NCBI RefSeq assembly: GCF_000212855.1 | Contig: NZ_GL890993.1 | Location: forward strand, 1,042,705-1,106,704 | Direction: 5' to 3' | Length of the DNA: 64,000 nucleotides | From: Streptococcus sanguinis SK355 | GTDB taxonomy: Bacteria; Bacillota; Bacilli; Lactobacillales; Streptococcaceae | Made by a program: the position numbers and the translations under genes | In this document: in pieces, positions 53,856 to 64,000 of the stretch | Layout: each line of letters begins with the position of its first letter | Position numbering within the stretch: the first letter of the stretch is position 1 | The notes under the pieces: model-generated | Database searches by the model: none | What the model saw: only the letters and a program-made list of their open reading frames with translations | What the model was told of the DNA's origin: nothing

Positions 53856-56375
53856 ATGGCGAATATTTTAAAGACTATCATTGAAAATGATAAAGGTGAA
53901 TTAAGAAAATTAGAAAAAATGGCTGACAAGGTCTTGGCTTATGAAGACGAAATGGCGGCCTTATCTGATGAAGAACTTCAGGCAAAAACAGAAGAATTCA
54001 AGAAACGCTATGCTGATGGCGAAACTTTAGATCAGCTCTTATTTGAAGCTTTTGCGGTTGTCCGTGAGGGAGCTAAGCGGGTGTTGGGACTCTTCCCTTA
54101 TAAGGTACAGGTTATGGGAGGGATCGTTCTCCATCATGGTGACGTTCCAGAGATGCGTACCGGTGAAGGAAAAACCTTGACAGCGACAATGCCAGTTTAC
54201 TTAAATGCCCTTGCAGGCAAAGGTGTGCACGTTGTCACAGTCAATGAATACCTGACTGAGCGTGACGCGACCGAAATGGGTGAACTCTACTCTTGGCTGG
54301 GCCTCTCTGTCGGTATCAATCTGGCAGCTAAGTCTCCATCTGAGAAGAAAGAAGCATACGCTTGCGACATTACCTATTCAACCAATGCTGAAATCGGCTT
54401 TGACTACCTGCGTGATAACATGGTAGTCCGCGCTGAAAACATGGTACAGCGTCCACTCAACTATGCCTTGGTCGATGAGGTGGATTCAATCCTGATTGAC
54501 GAAGCTCGGACACCATTGATTGTATCCGGACCAGTTTCTTCAGATACCAACCAGCTTTATCATATGGCTGACCACTATGTCAAATCTCTGGATAAGGACG
54601 ACTACATCATCGATGTTCAGTCTAAGACGATTGGTCTGTCTGACTCAGGGATTGATAAGGCAGAAAGTTACTTCAAGCTGGACAATCTCTACGATATTGA
54701 AAATGTTGCCCTGACTCACTTTATCGACAATGCTCTGCGAGCTAACTACATCATGCTCCTTGACATTGACTATGTGGTCAGTGAAGATCAGGAAATTCTG
54801 ATTGTCGATCAGTTTACTGGTCGGACAATGGAAGGACGTCGTTACTCTGACGGTCTCCACCAAGCGATTGAAGCCAAAGAAGGTGTGCCGATTCAGGAAG
54901 AAACAAAGACCTCTGCTTCTATTACTTATCAGAACCTCTTCCGTATGTATAAGAAGCTGTCCGGCATGACAGGTACAGCCAAGACAGAGGAAGAAGAGTT
55001 CCGCGAAACATACAACATTCGTGTTATTCCGATTCCAACCAACCGTCCGGTAGCACGTATTGACCATTCTGACCTGCTCTACCCAAGTATTGATTCTAAG
55101 TTCAAGGCAGTTGTTCAGGATGTTAAAGAGCGTCATGAAAAAGGCCAGCCAGTTCTGGTCGGTACCGTTGCGGTTGAAACCAGTGATTATATTTCTAAGA
55201 AATTGGTGGAAGCTGAGGTTCCTCATGAAGTTCTTAATGCGAAAAACCACTATAAAGAAGCACAAATTATCATGAACGCCGGCCAACGTGGTGCGGTTAC
55301 TATTGCGACCAATATGGCCGGACGGGGAACCGACATCAAGTTGGGTGAAGGTGTTCGCGAACTGGGCGGTCTCTGCGTTATCGGTACAGAGCGCCATGAA
55401 AGCCGCCGGATTGACAATCAGCTGCGCGGACGTTCAGGCCGTCAGGGTGATCCAGGTGAGTCACAGTTCTACCTGTCACTGGAAGATGAGCTTATGCGCC
55501 GCTTTGGCTCAGAGCGCATTAAAGCCCTCTTGGATCGAATGAACCTTAGTGACGAAGATTCTGTTATCAAGTCTGGCATGCTGACCCGTCAGGTAGAGGC
55601 GGCTCAGAAGCGTGTCGAAGGAAATAACTACGATACGCGGAAACAAGTCTTGCAGTATGACGATGTGATGCGTGAGCAACGGGAAATTATCTATGCCGAG
55701 CGCCACGATGTCATTACTGCTGACCGTGACCTCAGTCCTGAAATCCAGGCTATGATTAAACGGACTATCAACCGCATCGTTGATGGCAGCAGCCACTCTG
55801 ATCAGGATGATAAGATTGAAGCGATTTTAAACTTTGCTAAGTATAACTTGGTTTCAGAAGATTCTATTTCAGATAGCGATTTGGAAGGCAAATCTGACCA
55901 AGAAATCAAAGATTATCTGTTTGAACGTGCACTGGAAGTCTATGACAGTCAGATTGCTAAGCTGCGAGACGAAGAAGCAGTGCGTGAATTCCAGAAGGTC
56001 TTGATCCTGCGCGTAGTGGACAGCAAGTGGACTGACCATATCGACGCCCTTGACCAGCTGCGCAATGCTGTTGGACTGCGTGGTTATGCACAAAATAACC
56101 CAGTTGTCGAATACCAAGCAGAGAGTTTCCGTATGTTCAACGACATGATTGGCTCCATTGAATTTGATGTGACTCGTCTGATGATGAAAGCGCAGATTCA
56201 TGAGCAAGAGCGTCCGCGGACAGAGCGTGCTATCAGTACGACTGCTACCCGCAATATCTCTGCTAAGGCGCCAAATATACCTGATAATATAGACCTGTCT
56301 AACGTAAAGAGAAACGACCCTTGTCCATGTGGCTCTGGCAAGAAGTTCAAGAACTGTCACGGCCGTAAAAAGTAA
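53856..56375 (+). CDS. secA: Preprotein translocase ATPase SecA
   Basis: 839 aa motor of the general secretion pathway. Walker A-type [14 protein letters not shown] (about residues 101-114), [16 protein letters not shown] (about 208-223), and [16 protein letters not shown] (about 490-505) are visible. The C-terminal zinc-binding tail [20 protein letters not shown] is complete. It starts [20 protein letters not shown]. It begins the conserved streptococcal core block and is followed 20 nt later by a DAHP synthase gene. Confidence 0.98.
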
Positions 56376-56395
56376 GCGTAAAAGAAGGAGAATAG

Positions 56396-57427
56396 ATGAC
56401 CTTTAAAGCAACCAGTCAACCCATTGATGTGGCAGAAGTTCGCCAACTTGCTAAGTTAGAAGGCGACATGCTCGCTCGCAAGGAAAAGCGTGACCGAGAG
56501 TTAGAAGCAATTCTGCGTGGTCAGGATGACCGCATTCTCTTGGTCATTGGTCCCTGCTCTTCAGATAATGAAGAAGCGGTGCTGGAGTATGCCAAGCGTC
56601 TATCTGCTCTCCAAGAAGAAGTAAAAGACCGTATTTTCATGGTCATGCGTGTTTATACTGCCAAGCCTCGGACGAATGGAGATGGCTACAAAGGGCTTAT
56701 TCATCAGCCTAATGCGACGGCCGCTCCAAGTCTGATTAACGGCATCAAGGCAGTCCGCAATCTGCACTATCGGGTTATTTCTGAGACAGGTATGACCACG
56801 GCTGATGAGATGCTCTATCCAGAAAATCTGCCTCTGGTAGATGATTTGATTTCTTACATGGCTGTAGGAGCTCGCTCGGTCGAAGACCAGCAGCACCGCT
56901 TTGTAGCTAGTGGAGCAGATCTGCCGACTGGCTTGAAAAATCCGACTTCTGGCAATCTCAATGTCATGTTTAACGGAATCTATGCAGCCCAGAACAAGCA
57001 GAGTTTCCTATTCGCGGGTAAGGAAGTCGAAACATCTGGCAATCCTTTGGCGCATGCCATCTTGCGCGGTGCCCTGAACGAATACGGCAAGAATATTCCT
57101 AACTACTATTATGATAACCTGCTGGATACCATTGCCCAGTATGAAAAAATGGGCTTAGAAAATCCCTTTATCATCATTGATACCAATCATGATAACTCTG
57201 GTAAGCAGTATCTGGAGCAGGTTCGTATCGTTCGCCAGACTCTGATTAACCGGGACTGGAATGAAAAGATTAAGGCTACAGTACGGGGCTTTATGATCGA
57301 GTCTTATCTGGAAGACGGCCGTCAGGACGAACCAGAAGTCTTTGGCAAGTCCATTACAGACCCTTGTCTGGGCTGGGCAAATACAGAACAGCTGGTTCGT
57401 GAAATTTATGATACATTAGGAAAATAG
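56396..57427 (+). CDS. DAHP synthase (type I), copy 1
   Basis: 343 aa 3-deoxy-D-arabino-heptulosonate-7-phosphate synthase, first step of the shikimate pathway. LLVIGPCSSDNEEAVLEYAK (about residues 49-68), MRVYTAKPRTNGDGYKGLIH (about 83-102), GARSVEDQQHRFVASG (about 159) and IIDTNHDNSGKQYLEQ (about 258) are AroF/G/H-type motifs. SD AAGGAG precedes ATG 56396. It is a close paralogue of the next gene and ends one base before it. Feedback specificity cannot be read. Confidence 0.96.
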   Translation: MTFKATSQPIDVAEVRQLAKLEGDMLARKEKRDRELEAILRGQDDRILLVIGPCSSDNEEAVLEYAKRLSALQEEVKDRIFMVMRVYTAKPRTNGDGYKGLIHQPNATAAPSLINGIKAVRNLHYRVISETGMTTADEMLYPENLPLVDDLISYMAVGARSVEDQQHRFVASGADLPTGLKNPTSGNLNVMFNGIYAAQNKQSFLFAGKEVETSGNPLAHAILRGALNEYGKNIPNYYYDNLLDTIAQYEKMGLENPFIIIDTNHDNSGKQYLEQVRIVRQTLINRDWNEKIKATVRGFMIESYLEDGRQDEPEVFGKSITDPCLGWANTEQLVREIYDTLGK

Positions 57428-57428
57428 T

Positions 57429-58460
57429 ATGGCATTTATTGAAAAAGGTCAGAAGATTGACATTGAGCAGATTAAGTCCAGAACCAGACTGACTGGTCAG
57501 GCCTTGGCTCATAAAAACAAGCGAGATCAAGAACTAGCTGAGATTCTCAGTGGCGAAGACGAGCGCATTCTCTTGGTGATTGGCCCTTGCTCATCGGACA
57601 ATGAAGAGGCTGTGCTGGAGTATGCCCACCGTTTGTCAGAGCTGCAGAAGAAGGTCGCAGATAAGATTTTTATCGTCATGCGGGTCTATACTGCTAAGCC
57701 GCGGACCAATGGGGATGGCTATAAGGGCTTAGTTCACCAGCCAGATACTTCTAAAGCACCTAGTCTTATCAATGGTTTGCAGGCAGTTCGTCAGTTGCAC
57801 TATCGTGTCATTACAGAGACTGGTCTGACGACGGCTGATGAGATGCTCTATCCGTCCAATCTTGTGCTGGTAGACGACTTGGTCAGCTATCATGCTGTGG
57901 GTGCCCGCTCAGTTGAAGACCAGGAGCACCGCTTTGTGGCGTCAGGGATTGACGCTCCGGTCGGCATGAAAAATCCAACTTCTGGCAATCTGGGGGTTAT
58001 GTTTAACGCTGTCTATGCGGCACAAAATAAGCAGACTTTCCTTTTTCATGGCCAGGAAGTAGAAACATCTGGGAATCCTTTGGCTCATGTTATTCTGCGT
58101 GGGGCAACCAATGAATATGGTAAAAATATCCCAAATTTCTACTATGAGAATATGCTGGATGCCATTTCCTACTACGAAAAGATGGGCTTGGAGAATCCTT
58201 TCATCGTCATTGATACCAATCACGATAACTCTGGCAAGCAGTATCTGGAACAGATTAGGATTGTGCGTCAGACCTTGCTGAATCGGGATTGGAACGAAAA
58301 GATTAAGAGAGCGGTTCGTGGTTTTATGATTGAGTCTTATCTGGAGGATGGCCGGCAAAATGAGCCGGAAGTCTTTGGTAAATCCATTACAGACCCTTGT
58401 CTAGGCTGGGACAATACTGTTCAGCTCATTGAAGAAATTTACAACACTTTAGATAAATAA
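57429..58460 (+). CDS. DAHP synthase (type I), copy 2
   Basis: 343 aa, same length and nearly the same motifs as copy 1 (RLLVIGPCSSDNEEAVLEYA, MRVYTAKPRTNGDGYKGLVH, VEDQEHRFVASGIDAPVGMK). Differences cluster in the N-terminal 45 residues, the part that usually sets feedback control. The tandem pair probably gives isoenzymes with different aromatic amino acid inhibition, as in other streptococci. Confidence 0.96.
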   Translation: MAFIEKGQKIDIEQIKSRTRLTGQALAHKNKRDQELAEILSGEDERILLVIGPCSSDNEEAVLEYAHRLSELQKKVADKIFIVMRVYTAKPRTNGDGYKGLVHQPDTSKAPSLINGLQAVRQLHYRVITETGLTTADEMLYPSNLVLVDDLVSYHAVGARSVEDQEHRFVASGIDAPVGMKNPTSGNLGVMFNAVYAAQNKQTFLFHGQEVETSGNPLAHVILRGATNEYGKNIPNFYYENMLDAISYYEKMGLENPFIVIDTNHDNSGKQYLEQIRIVRQTLLNRDWNEKIKRAVRGFMIESYLEDGRQNEPEVFGKSITDPCLGWDNTVQLIEEIYNTLDK

Positions 58461-58518
58461 GGAAAATTGAAAGGGACAGTCTTGACCTGTAAAGAGGACT
58501 AACTGTCGGGTGAAGATG

Positions 58519-58548
58519 AACTCAGCTGGCGGCCCAGCTGAGTTTTGT
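58519..58548 (+). terminator. Hairpin between DAHP synthase copy 2 and acpS
   Basis: AACTCAGCTGG (58519-58529) pairs perfectly with CCAGCTGAGTT (58534-58544), loop 4 nt, tail TTTG. The short tail suggests a weak terminator. Confidence 0.65.
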
Positions 58549-58567
58549 CGCCTTTCCAGAGAATGAT

Positions 58568-58930
58568 ATGATAAAAGGACACGGAATTGACATAGAAGAG
58601 TTAGCTGCCATTGAGCGAGCCTATCTGAAAAATGCCCGCTTTGCAAAGAAGGTCTTGACCGAGGCGGAACTTACTCGTTTTGAGGAGTTATCCGGCAAAC
58701 GGAAAATCGAATTTCTGGCTGGCCGTTGGGCTGCCAAGGAGGCATTTTCTAAAGCTTGGGGAACCGGTATTGGTAAGCTCAGGTTTCAGGACTTGGAGAT
58801 TTTAAATGATCGCCAGGGAGCGCCTTATTTCAGCCGGTCACCTTTTACTGGCAAGGTTTGGATTTCGCTCAGCCATGCTGCTGGCCTAGTTACAGCCAGC
58901 GTTATTTTGGAGGAAAATGATGAAAGCTAG
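58568..58930 (+). CDS. acpS: Holo-[acyl-carrier-protein] synthase
   Basis: 120 aa phosphopantetheinyl transferase that activates acyl carrier protein. [18 protein letters not shown] (about residues 2-19, metal-binding Asp) and [20 protein letters not shown] (about 50-69) are the two signature motifs. It overlaps alr by 11 nt, the usual streptococcal arrangement. Confidence 0.96.
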
Positions 58931-60026
58931 TCTGCATAGACCCAGCAAGGCAGTGATTGATTTAGCTGCTATTGCTTTTAATATTAGACAACTGAGTGCC
59001 CATCTGCCTCAGACGACAGAGAAGTGGGCTGTCGTTAAAGCCAATGCTTATGGTCATGGAGCTATTGAGGTTTCTAAGCATATTGAGCCCCTCGTAGATG
59101 GTTTTTGTGTGTCTAATATCGATGAAGCCTTGGAGCTGCGCTCAGCTGGTATTGGCAAAAGAATTCTGGTGCTAGGAGTGTCAGATCTGGCTGCGCTTCC
59201 GCTGGCTAGAAAGGGAAAGGTGTCTCTGACCGTAGCCAGTCTGGAGTGGTTGGACCTAGCTTTAGCTGCGGAAAAAGACTTAACAGGATTGAATTTTCAT
59301 ATCAAGATTGACTCTGGTATGGGGCGGATTGGATTTCGAGATAGTCAGGAAGCTCAGGAGGCAATCCATCGCTTGCAGGCTGCTGGGGCTGTCGCGGAGG
59401 GAATTTTTACCCACTTTGCAACGGCAGATGAAGCGGAGCACCATAAGTTTGAAGCCCAGCTGGCTCGTTTTCATCAGATCTTATCTGAGCTGGACAGTGT
59501 TCCCCCTCTCGTTCACGCTAGTAATTCCGCCACATCTCTCTGGCACAGCGAGACCGTTCTAAATGCAGTTCGGCTGGGGGATATCATCTATGGTCTCAAC
59601 CCTAGCGGAAGAGTCTTGGAACTTCCTTATGAATTCAAGCCTGCCTTGACTCTGGTCTCAGAATTGGTGCATGTCAAGGAAGTAGATGCTGGAGCAGATG
59701 TTGGCTATGGAGCCACCTACACCAGCGAGTCTCAAGAGTGGATTGGCACCATTCCTTTGGGTTATGCGGATGGCTGGACACGCGATATGCAGGGGTTTGA
59801 TGTCTTGATTGATGGTAAGCGCTGCCCGCTTGTCGGCCGGGTTTCCATGGACCAGATTACAGTGCGCCTGCCTCAGGCTTATCCCCTTGGCACGCCGGTT
59901 GTGTTGATTGGAAATAGCGGAGCGGAGACCATTACGGCGACAGATGTGGCAGAAAAGCGTGGCACCATTAACTATGAGGTGGTTTGCTTGATTAGCGACC
60001 GTGTACCGAGGGTCTATAAAGACTAG
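58920..60026 (+). CDS. alr: Alanine racemase
   Basis: 368 aa PLP enzyme making D-alanine for the cell wall. ATG 58920 is preferred to 58917 because GGAGG ends at 58913 (6 nt against 3 nt spacing). The PLP lysine is in [12 protein letters not shown] (about residue 40), and the opposite-face tyrosine in [12 protein letters not shown] (about 265). SNSATSLW and [14 protein letters not shown] are typical. It overlaps acpS by 11 nt. Confidence 0.96.
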
Positions 60027-60130
60027 GAAGATTAATGCAGGGAACCGCTTGAAGTATTTGATAATGTTCTAGCTTGGCCCCCTGTCTGTGGTTTTAGATC
60101 CGCAGCAGTATCAGAACTGAAAGAGGAATT

Positions 60131-62146
60131 ATGAATTTACACCAACCTTTGACGGTTCTGCCTGGTGTGGGACCGAAATCAGCAGAAAAATTTGCTAAGC
60201 TGGGTCTAGAGACCTTGCAGGATTTACTGCTTTATTTTCCTTTTCGTTATGAGGATTTTAAGAGTAAGAACGTCCTAGACTTGGAGGATGGAGAAAAGGC
60301 GGTTATTTCTGGTCAGGTCGTGACCCCAGCCAATGTCCAGTATTATGGCTACAAACGCAATCGCCTGCGCTTCACTATCAAGCAGGGAGAAGTCGCTCTA
60401 GCAGTTAATTTCTTTAACCAGCCTTATCTAGCGGACAAGATTGAAGTGGGAGCTAATATAGCTGTCTTTGGCAAGTGGGACAAAGCCAAGGCTAGTCTTA
60501 CTGGAATGAAACTGTTGGCTCAGGTAGAGGACGACTTGCAGCCTGTCTATCGGCTGGCTCAGGGAATTAGTCAGGCCAGTCTGGTCAAGCTGATTAAGAC
60601 TGCCTTTGACCAAGGTTTGGACTTGCTCTTAGAGGAAAATCTACCCCATCCCCTGCTGGAACTCTACCAACTAGTGAGCAGAGTTGAGGCTGTGCGGGCT
60701 ATGCATTTTCCAAAGGACTTTGCGGACTACAAGCAGGCTCTTCGGCGGGTCAAGTTTGAAGAACTCTTTTATTTTCAAATGCAACTGCAGGTGCTAAAGA
60801 GAGAAACCAAGGCTGTCAGCAATGGATTAAAGATTGATTGGCGGTCGGATACTGTAGCCGAGAAAAAGCAGAGCTTGCCTTTTGAGCTGACTTCAGCTCA
60901 GGAGCGCAGTCTGACAGAGATTTTGCAGGATTTGCGGTCGCCTGGACACATGAATCGCCTGCTACAGGGCGATGTGGGAAGCGGAAAGACAGTAGTCGCT
61001 GGTCTGGCTATGTATGCTGTTTATACAGCTGGCTTTCAGTCAGCTCTGATGGTTCCAACAGAAATTTTGGCTGAGCAGCATTTTGACAGCCTAGCTCAGC
61101 TATTTCCAGAACTGAAATTGGCCCTACTTACTGGGGGAATGAAAGCAGCTGAACGCCGAAAGACCTTGGAAGCGATTGAAAAAGGTCAGATGGACATGAT
61201 TGTCGGAACCCATGCCCTGATTCAGGAAGGAGTCCGTTACCATGCATTGGGTTTGGTCATTATTGACGAGCAGCATCGCTTTGGGGTGGAGCAGCGCCGG
61301 ATTTTACGGGAAAAGGGAGACAATCCTGATGTCCTCATGATGACGGCGACGCCTATCCCCAGAACCCTTGCTATCACAGCATTTGGTGATATGGATGTGT
61401 CCATTATTGACCAGATGCCGGCGGGACGCAAACCTATCATCACCCGCTGGGTCAAGCATGAGCAGCTGGAAGTCGTCCTCGACTGGCTGAAAAAAGAGCT
61501 CCACAAGGGGGCTCAGGTCTACTTTATTTCTCCCTTGATTGAGGAATCTGAGGCGCTGGATCTTAAGAATGCCATTGCCTTAGAAGAAGAACTGACAGCC
61601 TATTTTGGTCAGCAGGCCCAAGTGGCTCTGCTTCATGGCAAGATGAAGAGCGAGGAAAAAGATGCGATTATGCAGGACTTCAAGGAAGGACGGACTGATA
61701 TTCTGGTCTCTACCACGGTCATTGAGGTCGGAGTCAACGTCCCCAATGCTACAGTGATGGTCATCATGGATGCGGATCGCTTCGGACTCAGCCAGCTTCA
61801 TCAGCTGAGAGGCCGCGTTGGCCGGGGGAGCAAGCAGTCTTATGCCGTCCTTGTTGCCAATCCTAAGACGGAGTCGGGCAAGCGCCGCATGAAAATCATG
61901 ACTGAGACGATTGATGGATTCCTGCTAGCTGAAGAGGATTTGAAAATGCGAGGTTCCGGAGAAATCTTTGGCACTCGGCAGTCTGGTATTCCTGAGTTTC
62001 AAGTGGCAGACATCGTAGAAGATTATCCGATTTTAGAAGAAGCCAGAAAGGTTGCCAGCCAGATTACAGCTGATCCGAACTGGCGGACAGATCCTAATTG
62101 GCACTTGATTGCTCTTCATTTGGACAAGCGAGATTACCTAGATTAA
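60131..62146 (+). CDS. recG: ATP-dependent DNA helicase RecG
   Basis: 671 aa helicase that remodels stalled forks and Holliday junctions. The N-terminal wedge/OB domain runs to about residue 240 (LTVLPGVGPKSAEKFAKLGL). Helicase motifs: LLQGDVGSGKTVVA (I, about residues 277-290), DEQHRFGVEQR (II, about 379-389), MTATPIPRTLA (III, about 403), and TTVIEVGVNVPNA and QLRGRVGRGSKQS (V-VI). AGAGGA precedes ATG 60131, and the 104 nt before it holds nothing else that I recognise. Confidence 0.97.
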   Translation: MNLHQPLTVLPGVGPKSAEKFAKLGLETLQDLLLYFPFRYEDFKSKNVLDLEDGEKAVISGQVVTPANVQYYGYKRNRLRFTIKQGEVALAVNFFNQPYLADKIEVGANIAVFGKWDKAKASLTGMKLLAQVEDDLQPVYRLAQGISQASLVKLIKTAFDQGLDLLLEENLPHPLLELYQLVSRVEAVRAMHFPKDFADYKQALRRVKFEELFYFQMQLQVLKRETKAVSNGLKIDWRSDTVAEKKQSLPFELTSAQERSLTEILQDLRSPGHMNRLLQGDVGSGKTVVAGLAMYAVYTAGFQSALMVPTEILAEQHFDSLAQLFPELKLALLTGGMKAAERRKTLEAIEKGQMDMIVGTHALIQEGVRYHALGLVIIDEQHRFGVEQRRILREKGDNPDVLMMTATPIPRTLAITAFGDMDVSIIDQMPAGRKPIITRWVKHEQLEVVLDWLKKELHKGAQVYFISPLIEESEALDLKNAIALEEELTAYFGQQAQVALLHGKMKSEEKDAIMQDFKEGRTDILVSTTVIEVGVNVPNATVMVIMDADRFGLSQLHQLRGRVGRGSKQSYAVLVANPKTESGKRRMKIMTETIDGFLLAEEDLKMRGSGEIFGTRQSGIPEFQVADIVEDYPILEEARKVASQITADPNWRTDPNWHLIALHLDKRDYLD

Positions 62147-62157
62147 GAGTTCTTTGG

Positions 62158-62212
62158 ATTAAGTTTCCTGCAAGTTATTTATAAGTAGGCTTTAAGTTTG
62201 AGGGATTATACT
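62158..62212 (+). promoter_or_regulatory. CiaR-type promoter A (11-bp-phased hexamers)
   Basis: Hexamers ending AAG recur every 11 bp: ATTAAG (62158), TGCAAG (62169), TATAAG (62180), TTTAAG (62191). Exactly 10 nt after the last comes TATACT (62207-62212). The last pair fits the CiaR direct repeat TTTAAG-N5-TTTAAG with one mismatch. Confidence 0.65.
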
Positions 62213-62218
62213 ATTGTC

Positions 62219-62401
62219 AAATCAAAGAAAGAGGTAGGACCAATGACAATGTAAACATCCCTTAAAATCCTGTAACCAAAGCTTGAAGACTAGAAGACTT
62301 GCGAGGTATGAGCCACTCAAAGAAATAGAATAATTTAGAATTTTTTCATCAACAATCTCCTAATAAATCACAAGCTTCATCCAATCGGTGAAGTTTTTTT
62401 T
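62219..62401 (+). ncRNA. Putative CiaR-controlled small RNA A
   Basis: Predicted transcript from about 62219 to a T8-tailed terminator. It contains AATCTCCTAATAA (62354-62366), which carries the CUCCU anti-Shine-Dalgarno-like stretch seen in streptococcal csRNAs. No ORF with a ribosome site of note is present. The length of about 180 nt is somewhat longer than typical csRNAs, so an internal start is possible. Confidence 0.55.
62375..62401 (+). terminator. Terminator of small RNA A
   Basis: CTTCA-T-CC (62375-62382) pairs with GG-TGAAG (62387-62393) with one bulge, loop AATC, then T8 at 62394-62401. Confidence 0.8.
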
Positions 62402-62464
62402 GTATATAATTGAAAAGACTTGTTCATTTCAATTAGTAGATAGAGATTGCTGGACTTCTTTGAC

Positions 62465-62519
62465 TATAAGCTTTCCCTAAGAAATCTATAAGAGATTCTT
62501 AAGTTTAGGGCTGTATCCT
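62465..62519 (+). promoter_or_regulatory. CiaR-type promoter B (11-bp-phased hexamers)
   Basis: TATAAG (62465), CCTAAG (62476), TATAAG (62487), CTTAAG (62498), each 11 bp apart, then 10 nt and TATCCT (62514-62519). The geometry is the same as promoter A. Confidence 0.6.
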
Positions 62520-62525
62520 TATATC

Positions 62526-62589
62526 CAAGTAAGAACAAAAAGATTAGGGATCAAACTTGAGGTCAAACGCCCCAAGAGTTTCGTTTTTG
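62526..62589 (+). ncRNA. Putative CiaR-controlled small RNA B
   Basis: Short predicted transcript from promoter B to an imperfect hairpin (AAACTTG, GG at 62553-62562 with CC, CAAG, GTTT at 62570-62581) and TTTTT at 62584-62588. At about 65 nt it is short, and the terminator is imperfect, so read-through toward 62.6 kb is likely. Confidence 0.4.
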
Positions 62590-62624
62590 CTCTTAAAGAA
62601 TTCATGATAAGCGAGGTAAAAGCT

Positions 62625-62838
62625 ATGAAAGTTACAATCAAAGTCCACTATCCGAAGACATTTAAGCAAGCTCAGAAAATGGAGATGACCTATGGTAAGT
62701 GATTATATTTTTGAAATTCTAGAGTCTCTGTTTGAGGTTATCTTCTAAGACCAGCGATTCAATGAAGTTTTCCCAGTGTTAGAATATGAAAGAGTCAAAA
62801 AAGTGCTAAGCAAACTTAGCACTTCTTGATTTAAAGAA
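62625..62838 (+). pseudogene. Possible remnant of a small gene
   Basis: ATG 62625, after GCGAGGTAAAAG, opens MKVTIKVHYPKTFKQAQKMEMTYGK and stops at 62702. A second frame from ATG 62692 reads MVSDYIFEILESLFEVIF, stop, then continues open to 62838. The protein-like composition split by a frame change and a stop suggests a decayed gene. I do not recognise the family, and chance is possible. Confidence 0.25.
62801..62824 (-). terminator. Terminator of the asparaginase gene
   Basis: AAGTGCTAAG (62801-62810) and CTTAGCACTT (62815-62824) form a perfect 10-bp stem with a CAAA loop. On the minus strand TTTT follows directly, so it ends the leftward asparaginase transcript. Confidence 0.8.
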
Positions 62839-62859
62839 AATAAATAGGGGCTTTTTCTC

Positions 62860-63822
62860 TCAGCCTTCCATATAATTCCGGAGTTCTTGGTCTTTGAGTC
62901 CAGCATTCAGGGCGATGAGCAGTTTGATTCTGGCTTTTTGGGCATTGAGCTCTTTGACGAAGAAGATACCAGCCTGGTGCAGCTGAACGCCGCCACCTTC
63001 ATAAGCATAGACTGGCTCAGCGATCCCGTTAAAGCAGCGAGAGACCAGAGCAATTGGCAGTCCGGCTGCTATCATATCAGCTAGCTTGTCAGCTACTTCC
63101 TTGGGGAGGTTGCCAGCACCGAATGCCTCTATGATGAGGCCGTCTATCTTGTCTAAATCCAGCATATCCAGAAGTTCTGTCTTCATACCCGCATAAGCTG
63201 GAATAATGGGCACCAGACCAGAGATGCTGTTCAAGTCAAAGCGGACTCGAGGCTCCGCTGTCTTAAAATAGAGAATCTCCTGTTTCATAATCAAGCCAAG
63301 CGGTCCGTGAGTCGGTGTCTGGAAGGTGCTGACATTGGTCGTATGGGTCTTGGTTACATACTTGGCAGCATGTGCCTCGTCATTCATAACGACAAGAACG
63401 CCTTTATCGCTGGCTTTTTCATCACTAGCCACCCGCAGGGCTGTCAGGTAGTTATAGACTCCATCGCTCCCCAGCTCATTGGAACTGCGCATAGCTCCGG
63501 TCAGAACGACTGGAATCTTTGGCAACTGCATAGTATCCAGAAAGTAAGCCGTCTCTTCTAAAGTGTCCGTTCCATGAGTAATGACCACTCCGTCAAATTG
63601 GTCAGCGCTGGCTTTGATTTTCTGATAAAGTTTGAGCATATGCTGGGGTGTGATATGAGGACTGGGAATATTAAAAAAGTCAATGACTTCCGTCTCAATC
63701 CCTTCAAGCGGAACTGTCACATGGTTCATAGGGTTATCAGCATTGGTAACGACAGCCCCAGAGCCGTCAGCCTGCATGGAAATGGTTCCTCCTGTGTGCA
63801 GGACCAAGATTTTCTTTGTCAT
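62860..63822 (-). CDS. L-asparaginase (type I, cytoplasmic)
   Basis: 320 aa, starting MTKKILVLHTGGTISMQADG on the minus strand after AAGGAGAGAAAG. Hydrolyses asparagine to aspartate and ammonia. The first catalytic Thr is in HTGGTIS (residues 9-15) and the second in VVITHGTDTLEETAYFL (about 80-96). There is no signal peptide, so it is intracellular. It is convergent with recG and the small RNA region. Confidence 0.94.
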   Translation of the reverse strand: MTKKILVLHTGGTISMQADGSGAVVTNADNPMNHVTVPLEGIETEVIDFFNIPSPHITPQHMLKLYQKIKASADQFDGVVITHGTDTLEETAYFLDTMQLPKIPVVLTGAMRSSNELGSDGVYNYLTALRVASDEKASDKGVLVVMNDEAHAAKYVTKTHTTNVSTFQTPTHGPLGLIMKQEILYFKTAEPRVRFDLNSISGLVPIIPAYAGMKTELLDMLDLDKIDGLIIEAFGAGNLPKEVADKLADMIAAGLPIALVSRCFNGIAEPVYAYEGGGVQLHQAGIFFVKELNAQKARIKLLIALNAGLKDQELRNYMEG

Positions 63823-63958
63823 AAATTCTTTCTCTCCTTGTAGTCATGATGCAGATTCAAAAACTTACATTCTGTTTTCATAGAGTTTTCAATCCTGTTG
63901 CATAGATATTACTCCAGCTTTTCTTTTCTGCAATTCATGTGATTGTATGCCATTTTTG

Positions 63959-64000
63959 TGTTATAATTTATTGTATCATAAAAGGAAAGAATGAGAAAAT
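63959..64000 (+). promoter_or_regulatory. Extended -10 promoter and start of the next gene
   Basis: TGTTATAAT (63959-63967) is an extended -10. AAAGGAAAG then precedes ATG 63991, which opens a plus-strand reading frame (Met-Arg-Lys) cut off by the window end. The product cannot be told. The gap 63823-63958 holds the divergent regulatory region. Confidence 0.5.

Follow-up and report, generated by a model that had tools for sequence, protein, structure and literature searches.

The window (the whole stretch of 64,000 nucleotides of the oral bacterium Streptococcus sanguinis SK355 that was analysed) contains two promoters, A and B, each with four phased NNNAAG hexamers. The features of these promoters and of their predicted transcripts are as follows.

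62158..62196, plus strand: array A, four NNNAAG hexamers (ATTAAG at 62158, TGCAAG at 62169, TATAAG at 62180, TTTAAG at 62191)
62207..62212, plus strand: -10 box A, TATACT, 10 nt 3' of the last array A hexamer
62219..62401, plus strand: RNA A, 183 nt as predicted by the published length rule, probable csRNA8 orthologue
62231..62254, plus strand: Shine-Dalgarno (SD) sequence GAGG (62231-62234) and three-codon ORF ATG ACA ATG TAA (62243-62254)
62343..62360, plus strand: csRNA core TTTTCAT...ATCTCC, with the anti-SD CTCCT at 62357-62361
62372..62401, plus strand: intrinsic terminator of RNA A (stem 62372-62396, then T; terminator scan)
62465..62503, plus strand: array B, four NNNAAG hexamers (TATAAG at 62465, CCTAAG at 62476, TATAAG at 62487, CTTAAG at 62498)
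62514..62519, plus strand: -10 box B, TATCCT, 10 nt 3' of the last array B hexamer
62556..62588, plus strand: hairpin and T-rich run in the B leader, a possible attenuator (from folding; not called by the terminator scan)
62613..62702, plus strand: SD GAGG (62613-62616) and microprotein ORF (62625-62702; 25 aa, MKVTIKVHYPKTFKQAQKMEMTYGK)
62801..62824, plus strand: terminator stem 3' of the microprotein ORF (terminator scan, for which about one call is expected by chance in the stretch)

Phasing and conservation of the arrays

The sequence-only reading described hexamers exactly every 11 bp in both arrays, followed by 10 nt and a -10 box, and this was confirmed to the base for both. The -10 box of B (TATCCT) is poor. 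A sigma-70 promoter scan called no promoter at A or B, as expected because they have no -35 box; it made two calls elsewhere between 61900 and 63000, where 2.4 are expected. The full pattern, made up of four AAG at 11-bp steps, N10 and TANNNT, has exactly two matches in the 64-kb window and none in 100 dinucleotide shuffles. In the whole 2.37-Mb genome there are three matches (A, B and a site C at G000:C1:2288440) and none for a reversed-pattern control. Among the 12 S. sanguinis-group genomes with at least one full-pattern match, all four AAG of array B and all four of site C are retained in every one, and those of array A in 11, the exception being G009, which has TTTGAG. All or most of the window region is 93-96% identical in eight other genomes.

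Two phased hexamers, and not four, are found in this genome at the promoters of csRNA1-1, csRNA1-2, csRNA1-3 and csRNA7 and at one that we take to be the htrA promoter; four are found at A, B and C. The csRNA labels were assigned by order, spacing and sequence in comparison with Marx 2010. Another stretch (G000:C1:1869702-1869759) carries six NNNAAG hexamers in 11-bp phase. It is apparently intergenic and has no -10 match at N10, and its neighbours include short cupin-like and peptidase-like ORFs on the minus strand (labels assigned by eye).

A microprotein family behind promoter B

The full pattern has a match in 95 of 284 Streptococcus genomes, and the reversed-pattern control in one (G023). 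These matches are not all promoters: at least 12 of the rows listed represent one repeat (AAGAGCGATTGAAG...), which is not promoter-like by eye. When the first 30 four-hexamer loci were read by eye (leaving out L064, at a contig end), 19 proved to lead to an SD and a short ORF, nine to csRNA-like RNAs and one (L068) to neither. The arrays are thus not exclusive to the microprotein. Seventeen of the 19 ORFs fit a single family, L039 fits it loosely and L062 does not.

The consensus of this family is M-T-V-x-I-K-V-x-Y-x-K-x-F...Y-G-K. Its members are 20-33 aa long, have a V-x-Y-x-(K/T)-x-(F/Y) core and are preceded by an SD, a form shared by the window ORF at 62625-62702. This ORF matches the two family profiles with E values of 3.2e-12 and 1.2e-9, the peptide itself being a row in both. 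A 28-peptide profile detects the family at E<=0.01 in 179 of 284 Streptococcus genomes and not in the other 105; an earlier profile of 11 rows, used at E<=1, matched in 207 of the 284. Of 246 Lactobacillales genomes sampled, 24 have a match: 23 of the 34 Streptococcus among the rows listed, and one member of another genus, which is weak (6.5e-4). The non-Streptococcus part of the sample amounts to 212 provided that Streptococcus is absent from the other 202 rows. A search of 84,980 species with a DNA pattern for the beginning of the 25-aa ORF found 34 stretches, 33 of them in Streptococcus; the remaining one, in a gamma-proteobacterium, was taken as chance. No NCBIfam model matches any of eight peptides submitted and no Pfam model any of six.

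The 337 ORF hits in loci were reduced to 178 by merging identical upstream-plus-ORF copies. Those with E below 1e-3, counted with one start per stop, give 133 distinct members, which represent 83 different peptides; an SD is present in 132. One profile hit (L143) seemed to fall within a gene and was set aside as a chance match. Selection was estimated from 80 distinct ORF sequences in nine hand-defined groups, members outside the groups being unpaired. The pN/pS ratio is 0.08-0.33 in six of the nine groups, 0.58 and 0.70 in two small groups, and 0.81 for the S. sanguinis type (nine sequences with few synonymous changes). In most of the family these ratios indicate purifying selection. The copy in the window is either too sparsely sampled or only weakly constrained.

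The microprotein is basic and apparently soluble, with no long hydrophobic stretch by eye. An AlphaFold2 model of a 33-aa member (L127) has a mean pLDDT of 64.6, a pTM of 0.14 and no secondary structure. At a guess, and one with little behind it, the microprotein might work in the cytoplasm as an effector or connector, with a short beta-prone N-terminus as the part that binds a partner. In several genomes microprotein genes occur in tandem, 259-467 nt apart (L258, at 3025 and 3492; G259 and G260). Site C (minus strand) is followed by an SD and a divergent ORF of 20 aa, MTSKVTLYDKQVLTFSQAQK (read by eye).

The members fall into 29 clusters at 80% identity. In 25 of these, four NAG stand in 11-bp register and the -10 box follows after N10; AAG stands at all four positions in 18 of the 25. 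Two of the other four clusters have two or three NAG. The last two are unscored: the window type because its leader exceeds the limit of the script (its array is known), and L179 because of N in its upstream sequence. The same register occurs in 0.03% of shuffled upstream sequences, and periods of 9, 10, 12 and 13 never give more than two. This linkage of promoter and family is partly circular because the loci behind the first profile had themselves been found by their promoter or by DNA similarity. Nine clusters have fewer than four AAG and lie beyond the reach of the full pattern; seven of them have four NAG. These seven were found by the protein profile, although relatives of the L138 type (G007 and G118) also match array B weakly at the DNA level. 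Four phased hexamers are the usual promoter of the microprotein family. Four in phase, which the sequence-only reading called striking, is an arrangement not peculiar to the window.

Of the 27 scored clusters, 25 have the ATG 29-32 nt after the -10 box; the distance is 80 nt in L152 and 46 nt in L115. In the window type (B) it is 105 nt, the longest leader seen, and in copy A 30 nt. The short leader is a common trait and not a defining one. In 17 of 20 loci chosen for diversity, the DNA-repair gene recG is the next upstream ORF (counting ORFs of at least 80 aa) on the same strand; L244, L250 and L257 have other neighbours. The microprotein gene of B also lies downstream of recG on the same strand. 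From the 17 of 20 it follows that most microprotein loci are probably one old locus.

The sequence-only reading took the product of promoter B for a second small RNA, with a 3' end implied near 62589. Neither part is borne out: at that position there is a weak hairpin with a T-rich run, no terminator is called within 250 nt of the -10 box, and the next one called on the plus strand is the stem at 62801-62824, after an SD and a 25-aa ORF of a conserved family. The frame, SD, start and stop of this ORF are intact in nine aligned S. sanguinis-group sequences. From these features, RNA B is probably the mRNA of the 25-aa microprotein and not a small RNA.

Three other views of B deserve consideration. 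A model in which both arrays drive csRNAs that code for nothing, with RNA B stopping at the hairpin and T-rich run, would agree with the CiaR-type promoter and with the order of the two elements in 62556-62588. We consider this quite improbable: the hairpin was missed by the terminator scan, whereas the terminator at 62801-62824 was called after the ORF; neither TTTTCAT nor CTCC occurs within 200 nt 3' of the ORF; and it is an SD and a family ORF that come next. B might also have a dual use, yielding a short RNA when transcription is attenuated at the leader hairpin and the microprotein mRNA when the polymerase reads through; this would make sense of the exceptionally long leader. The aligned relatives have the hairpin too, and substitutions are found in each of its arms (judged by eye, with no statistics). 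Set against this are the lack of a terminator call and the leader of about 30 nt in most relatives, which has no room for a hairpin, and such a dual use seems unlikely. We also doubt that the 25-aa ORF is a decaying, non-functional copy in S. sanguinis and that csRNA8 alone works at this locus. The pN/pS of 0.81 in the S. sanguinis group would suit decay, as would the stop at codon 4 of copy A in nine of nine genomes and the divergence of copy C (by eye), but the reading frame and its signals have stayed intact in the nine S. sanguinis-group sequences and array B is retained in 12 of 12 genomes. The reading of RNA B as a messenger remains the preferred one.

Two observations concern the sequence downstream of the microprotein ORF. 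An 18-aa ORF, MVSDYIFEILESLFEVIF, at 62692-62748 (plus strand) starts within the last microprotein codons and has GGAG upstream; its base changes in nine relatives are mostly synonymous by eye, and it was not seen, again by eye, 3' of the other cluster representatives. In L016 and L017 (G046 and G062) the terminator stretch 3' of the microprotein ORF is replaced by sequence starting GAGGCTGGGACAAAAGTCC, possibly a mobile repeat.

RNA A, the likely regulator and a proposed common origin

RNA A has a terminator within 250 nt of its -10 box, is intergenic and contains no ORF of at least 60 aa. The anti-SD-like CTCCT before a T8 terminator, pointed out in the sequence-only reading, is indeed present (62357-62361 and 62394-62401). 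By the length rule of Marx 2010, which gives 92, 94 and 86 nt for csRNA1-1, csRNA1-2 and csRNA7 (listed as 91, 94 and 85), RNA A is predicted to be 181-183 nt long in nine genomes. S. sanguinis SK36 has a csRNA8 of 177 nt on the plus strand, and all six S. sanguinis csRNAs were detected by northern blot in that strain (Marx et al. 2010, PMC3091779). The same source places the beginning of csRNA1-2 208 nt from that of csRNA1-1, csRNA7 1788 nt from csRNA1-2 and csRNA8 480,670 nt from csRNA1-1; in this genome the equivalent promoter matches are separated by 209, 1787 and 466,344 bases. The proposal that RNA A is a csRNA is thus supported, and RNA A is very probably csRNA8 itself and hence not new, a match made by order, strand and approximate size. 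The csRNA core of RNA A is common to csRNA1-1 and csRNA1-2 of this genome and is not matched in csRNA7. An Rfam search of 55000-64000 gave no match even at E<=1.

RNA A also resembles a microprotein transcript. Copy A lies directly after recG, the usual place of the microprotein gene. It keeps the family promoter, the leader of about 30 nt, the SD and the ATG, but the frame is lost and no intact ORF remains: in nine of nine genomes the ATG stands 30 nt after the -10 box and is followed by a stop at codon 4. Its promoter and leader resemble site C over about 106 nt (77% identity). In the other direction, the csRNA core is found within 160 nt 3' of the ORF in four of the 29 microprotein clusters, including loci of the S. 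anginosus and S. gordonii types, as against 4 of 8400 shuffles. The core motif was written after the downstream sequences had been read, which makes this test partly post hoc, and a cluster with N was kept out of the shuffles. By these sequence features, RNA A looks like a microprotein gene turned csRNA, and we infer the direction of that change.

Pairing of csRNAs with the SD of the microprotein mRNA was considered and is unsupported. With csRNA1-1, csRNA1-2 and csRNA7, the pairing at the B and C starts is equalled or surpassed at 40-53 of 54 other gene starts in the window. In these calculations the B stretch was offset by one base. The pairing of RNA A with the B start (-20.0 kcal/mol) is reached by 10 of 54 gene starts, and its pairing with the site C start is equalled or beaten by all 54.

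The published CiaR rule is TTTAAG-N5-TTTAAG, with one mismatch allowed in each hexamer and the G kept, then N10 and a TATAAT-like -10 box (PMC3091779); it is also given as TTTAAG-N5-TTTAAG-N22-TSS, that is, with one repeat pair (Slager 2019, PMC6560143). Promoter A fits the csRNA promoter rule as TATAAG-N5-TTTAAG-N10-TATACT, and array A as a whole can be read as two CiaR-type sites side by side. The earlier assignment of both promoters to the CiaR type is in keeping with the published rule in hexamers, N5, N10 and -10 box. CiaR is the likely regulator also because the homologous srf-21/rio82 locus is in the CiaR regulon. For A and B the CiaR reading is therefore well supported, if indirectly.

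VicR, TCS08 and similar OmpR-family regulators also use hexamer-N5-hexamer sites. It is conceivable that one of these, with direct repeats at 11-bp spacing, binds the arrays instead of CiaR, the more so as only the proximal pair is close to TTTAAG, the distal pair being NNNAAG. This is very unlikely given the agreement with the CiaR rule in every element, the membership in the CiaR regulon of srf-21, which carries the family member rio82, and the fact that the rule had predicted csRNA8 of SK36. If the regulator is CiaR, which is described as requiring phosphorylation for DNA binding, arrays A and B would be double-length CiaR operators. The phosphorylated protein, of the OmpR family, would most likely bind each hexamer pair as a dimer, placing two dimers next to each other on one face of the helix, where they would replace the -35 box for RNA polymerase. 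The second dimer, being in helical phase, would probably give a steeper or stronger response, and binding to the four hexamers, suggested earlier to be cooperative, may be so. On this reading, CiaR binding, transcription and translation would be expected in this strain.

CiaRH is linked to envelope stress, competence, biofilm formation and beta-lactam resistance in streptococci, and its output has been described as a set of genes together with the non-coding csRNAs. In the explanation that we favour, the transcript of promoter B would be the messenger for a 25-aa Rio82-family microprotein, a member of this envelope-stress regulon. A duplication after recG would have given two copies: B, which keeps the protein, and A, in which the frame was lost and the RNA function retained. 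The resulting csRNA8 ends in a csRNA core with an anti-SD and would probably now act as a base-pairing small RNA. For this joint reading (double-length CiaR operators, B as microprotein mRNA, A as csRNA8 derived from a frame-lost copy) we estimate a probability of about 0.75. A broader proposal is more tentative, and we would give it somewhat less than an even chance: CiaRH would have an overlooked and widespread target after recG, a microprotein gene under a double-length operator that belongs to it alone. In several lineages its transcript, with a csRNA core 3' of the ORF, would be a candidate for a dual function, and csRNA8 would be the end point of the series, its ORF lost and its RNA kept. 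On this proposal at least some csRNAs would have evolved from mRNAs of microproteins, and among the RNAs now classed as csRNAs there may be mRNAs.

RNA A is known or nearly so, and B is probably an mRNA and not a small RNA. Its microprotein family has been overlooked, was detected here almost exclusively in Streptococcus and stands out by its CiaR-type promoter. A conserved microprotein with its own promoter design would be a widespread member of the CiaRH regulon missed by annotation. As far as we have found, the family has been known as one of 114 ribosome-profiling ORFs and as an sRNA candidate, in one species. The natural two- and four-hexamer promoters of a single genome offer a direct test of four against two phased half-sites. 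The pair A and B would also provide a concrete route by which a small RNA arises from an mRNA.

Comparison with known systems

The top-ranked titles of a literature search include none on the family across species or on a four-hexamer CiaR operator; earlier mention is possible. The closest known counterpart of B is srf-21/rio82 of S. pneumoniae D39, likewise a CiaR-regulated transcript with a microprotein that has the V-x-Y-x-(K/T)-x-F core. It differs in that the peptide has 20 aa, the leader is about 31 nt in loci with the same peptide (105 nt in B) and the quoted CiaR rule has one repeat pair. Presumably recG also flanks rio82/srf-21 in D39. The order recG, microprotein, AXE1 is seen in L242 and L243, in L242 with a thioesterase-like ORF in between. 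A peptide identical to rio82 in every letter is found in members L156-L158, L163-L165 and others, and these loci carry four NAG hexamers in phase in their promoter, with TTTCAG or TTTTAG in the last position.

In D39, rio82 is reported as MTVTIKVNYQTTFQKKEAKN (20 aa), inside srf-21, with a start called by Ribo-RET; five of ten rio fusions to sfGFP gave a protein band, the outcome for rio82 going unstated in the source (Laczkovich 2022, PMC9426450). srf-21 lies upstream of axe1 and belongs to the CiaR regulon, with a log2 change of 3.2 ten minutes after CSP (PMC6560143). It is also listed, with rio82, as the sRNA candidate M74/Spd_sr83 (PMC12323649). The PneumoBrowse 2 text annotates rio82 as shp1518 (PMC11701578, section 14). 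In the source table it is rio84 that adjoins rgg1518, with rio82 in srf-21, and the PneumoBrowse 2 statement is probably a slip.

Srn024 of S. agalactiae resembles B as a CiaR-controlled RNA in which a short ORF was noticed. Unlike B, it has no RBS and is reported as non-coding, its 24-aa ORF having been tested and found not to encode a peptide (PMC9603419). csRNA22 of S. gordonii was considered as a possible microprotein RNA: the RNA predicted at the DD07-type locus has 190 nt, and csRNA22 is listed as 202 nt, its listed coordinates giving 153. The csRNAs of S. pneumoniae, csRNA1-csRNA5 (ccnA-E), share CiaR promoters with A and B and an anti-SD with RNA A, but they have one hexamer pair by the published rule and no ORF family is described for them in the parts of the sources consulted. 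The csRNA1 copies of S. sanguinis share the TTTTCAT...CTCC core with RNA A. The text on csRNA8 in PMC3091779, as far as available, mentions no SD, short ORF or microprotein family, and 'reading frame' is absent from the main text. The counterpart closest to RNA A is csRNA8 of SK36: the two differ in strain and in length (177 nt against 181-183 nt) and agree in strand, in order and approximate spacing relative to csRNA1-1, csRNA1-2 and csRNA7, in promoter type, and in having a terminator and an anti-SD.
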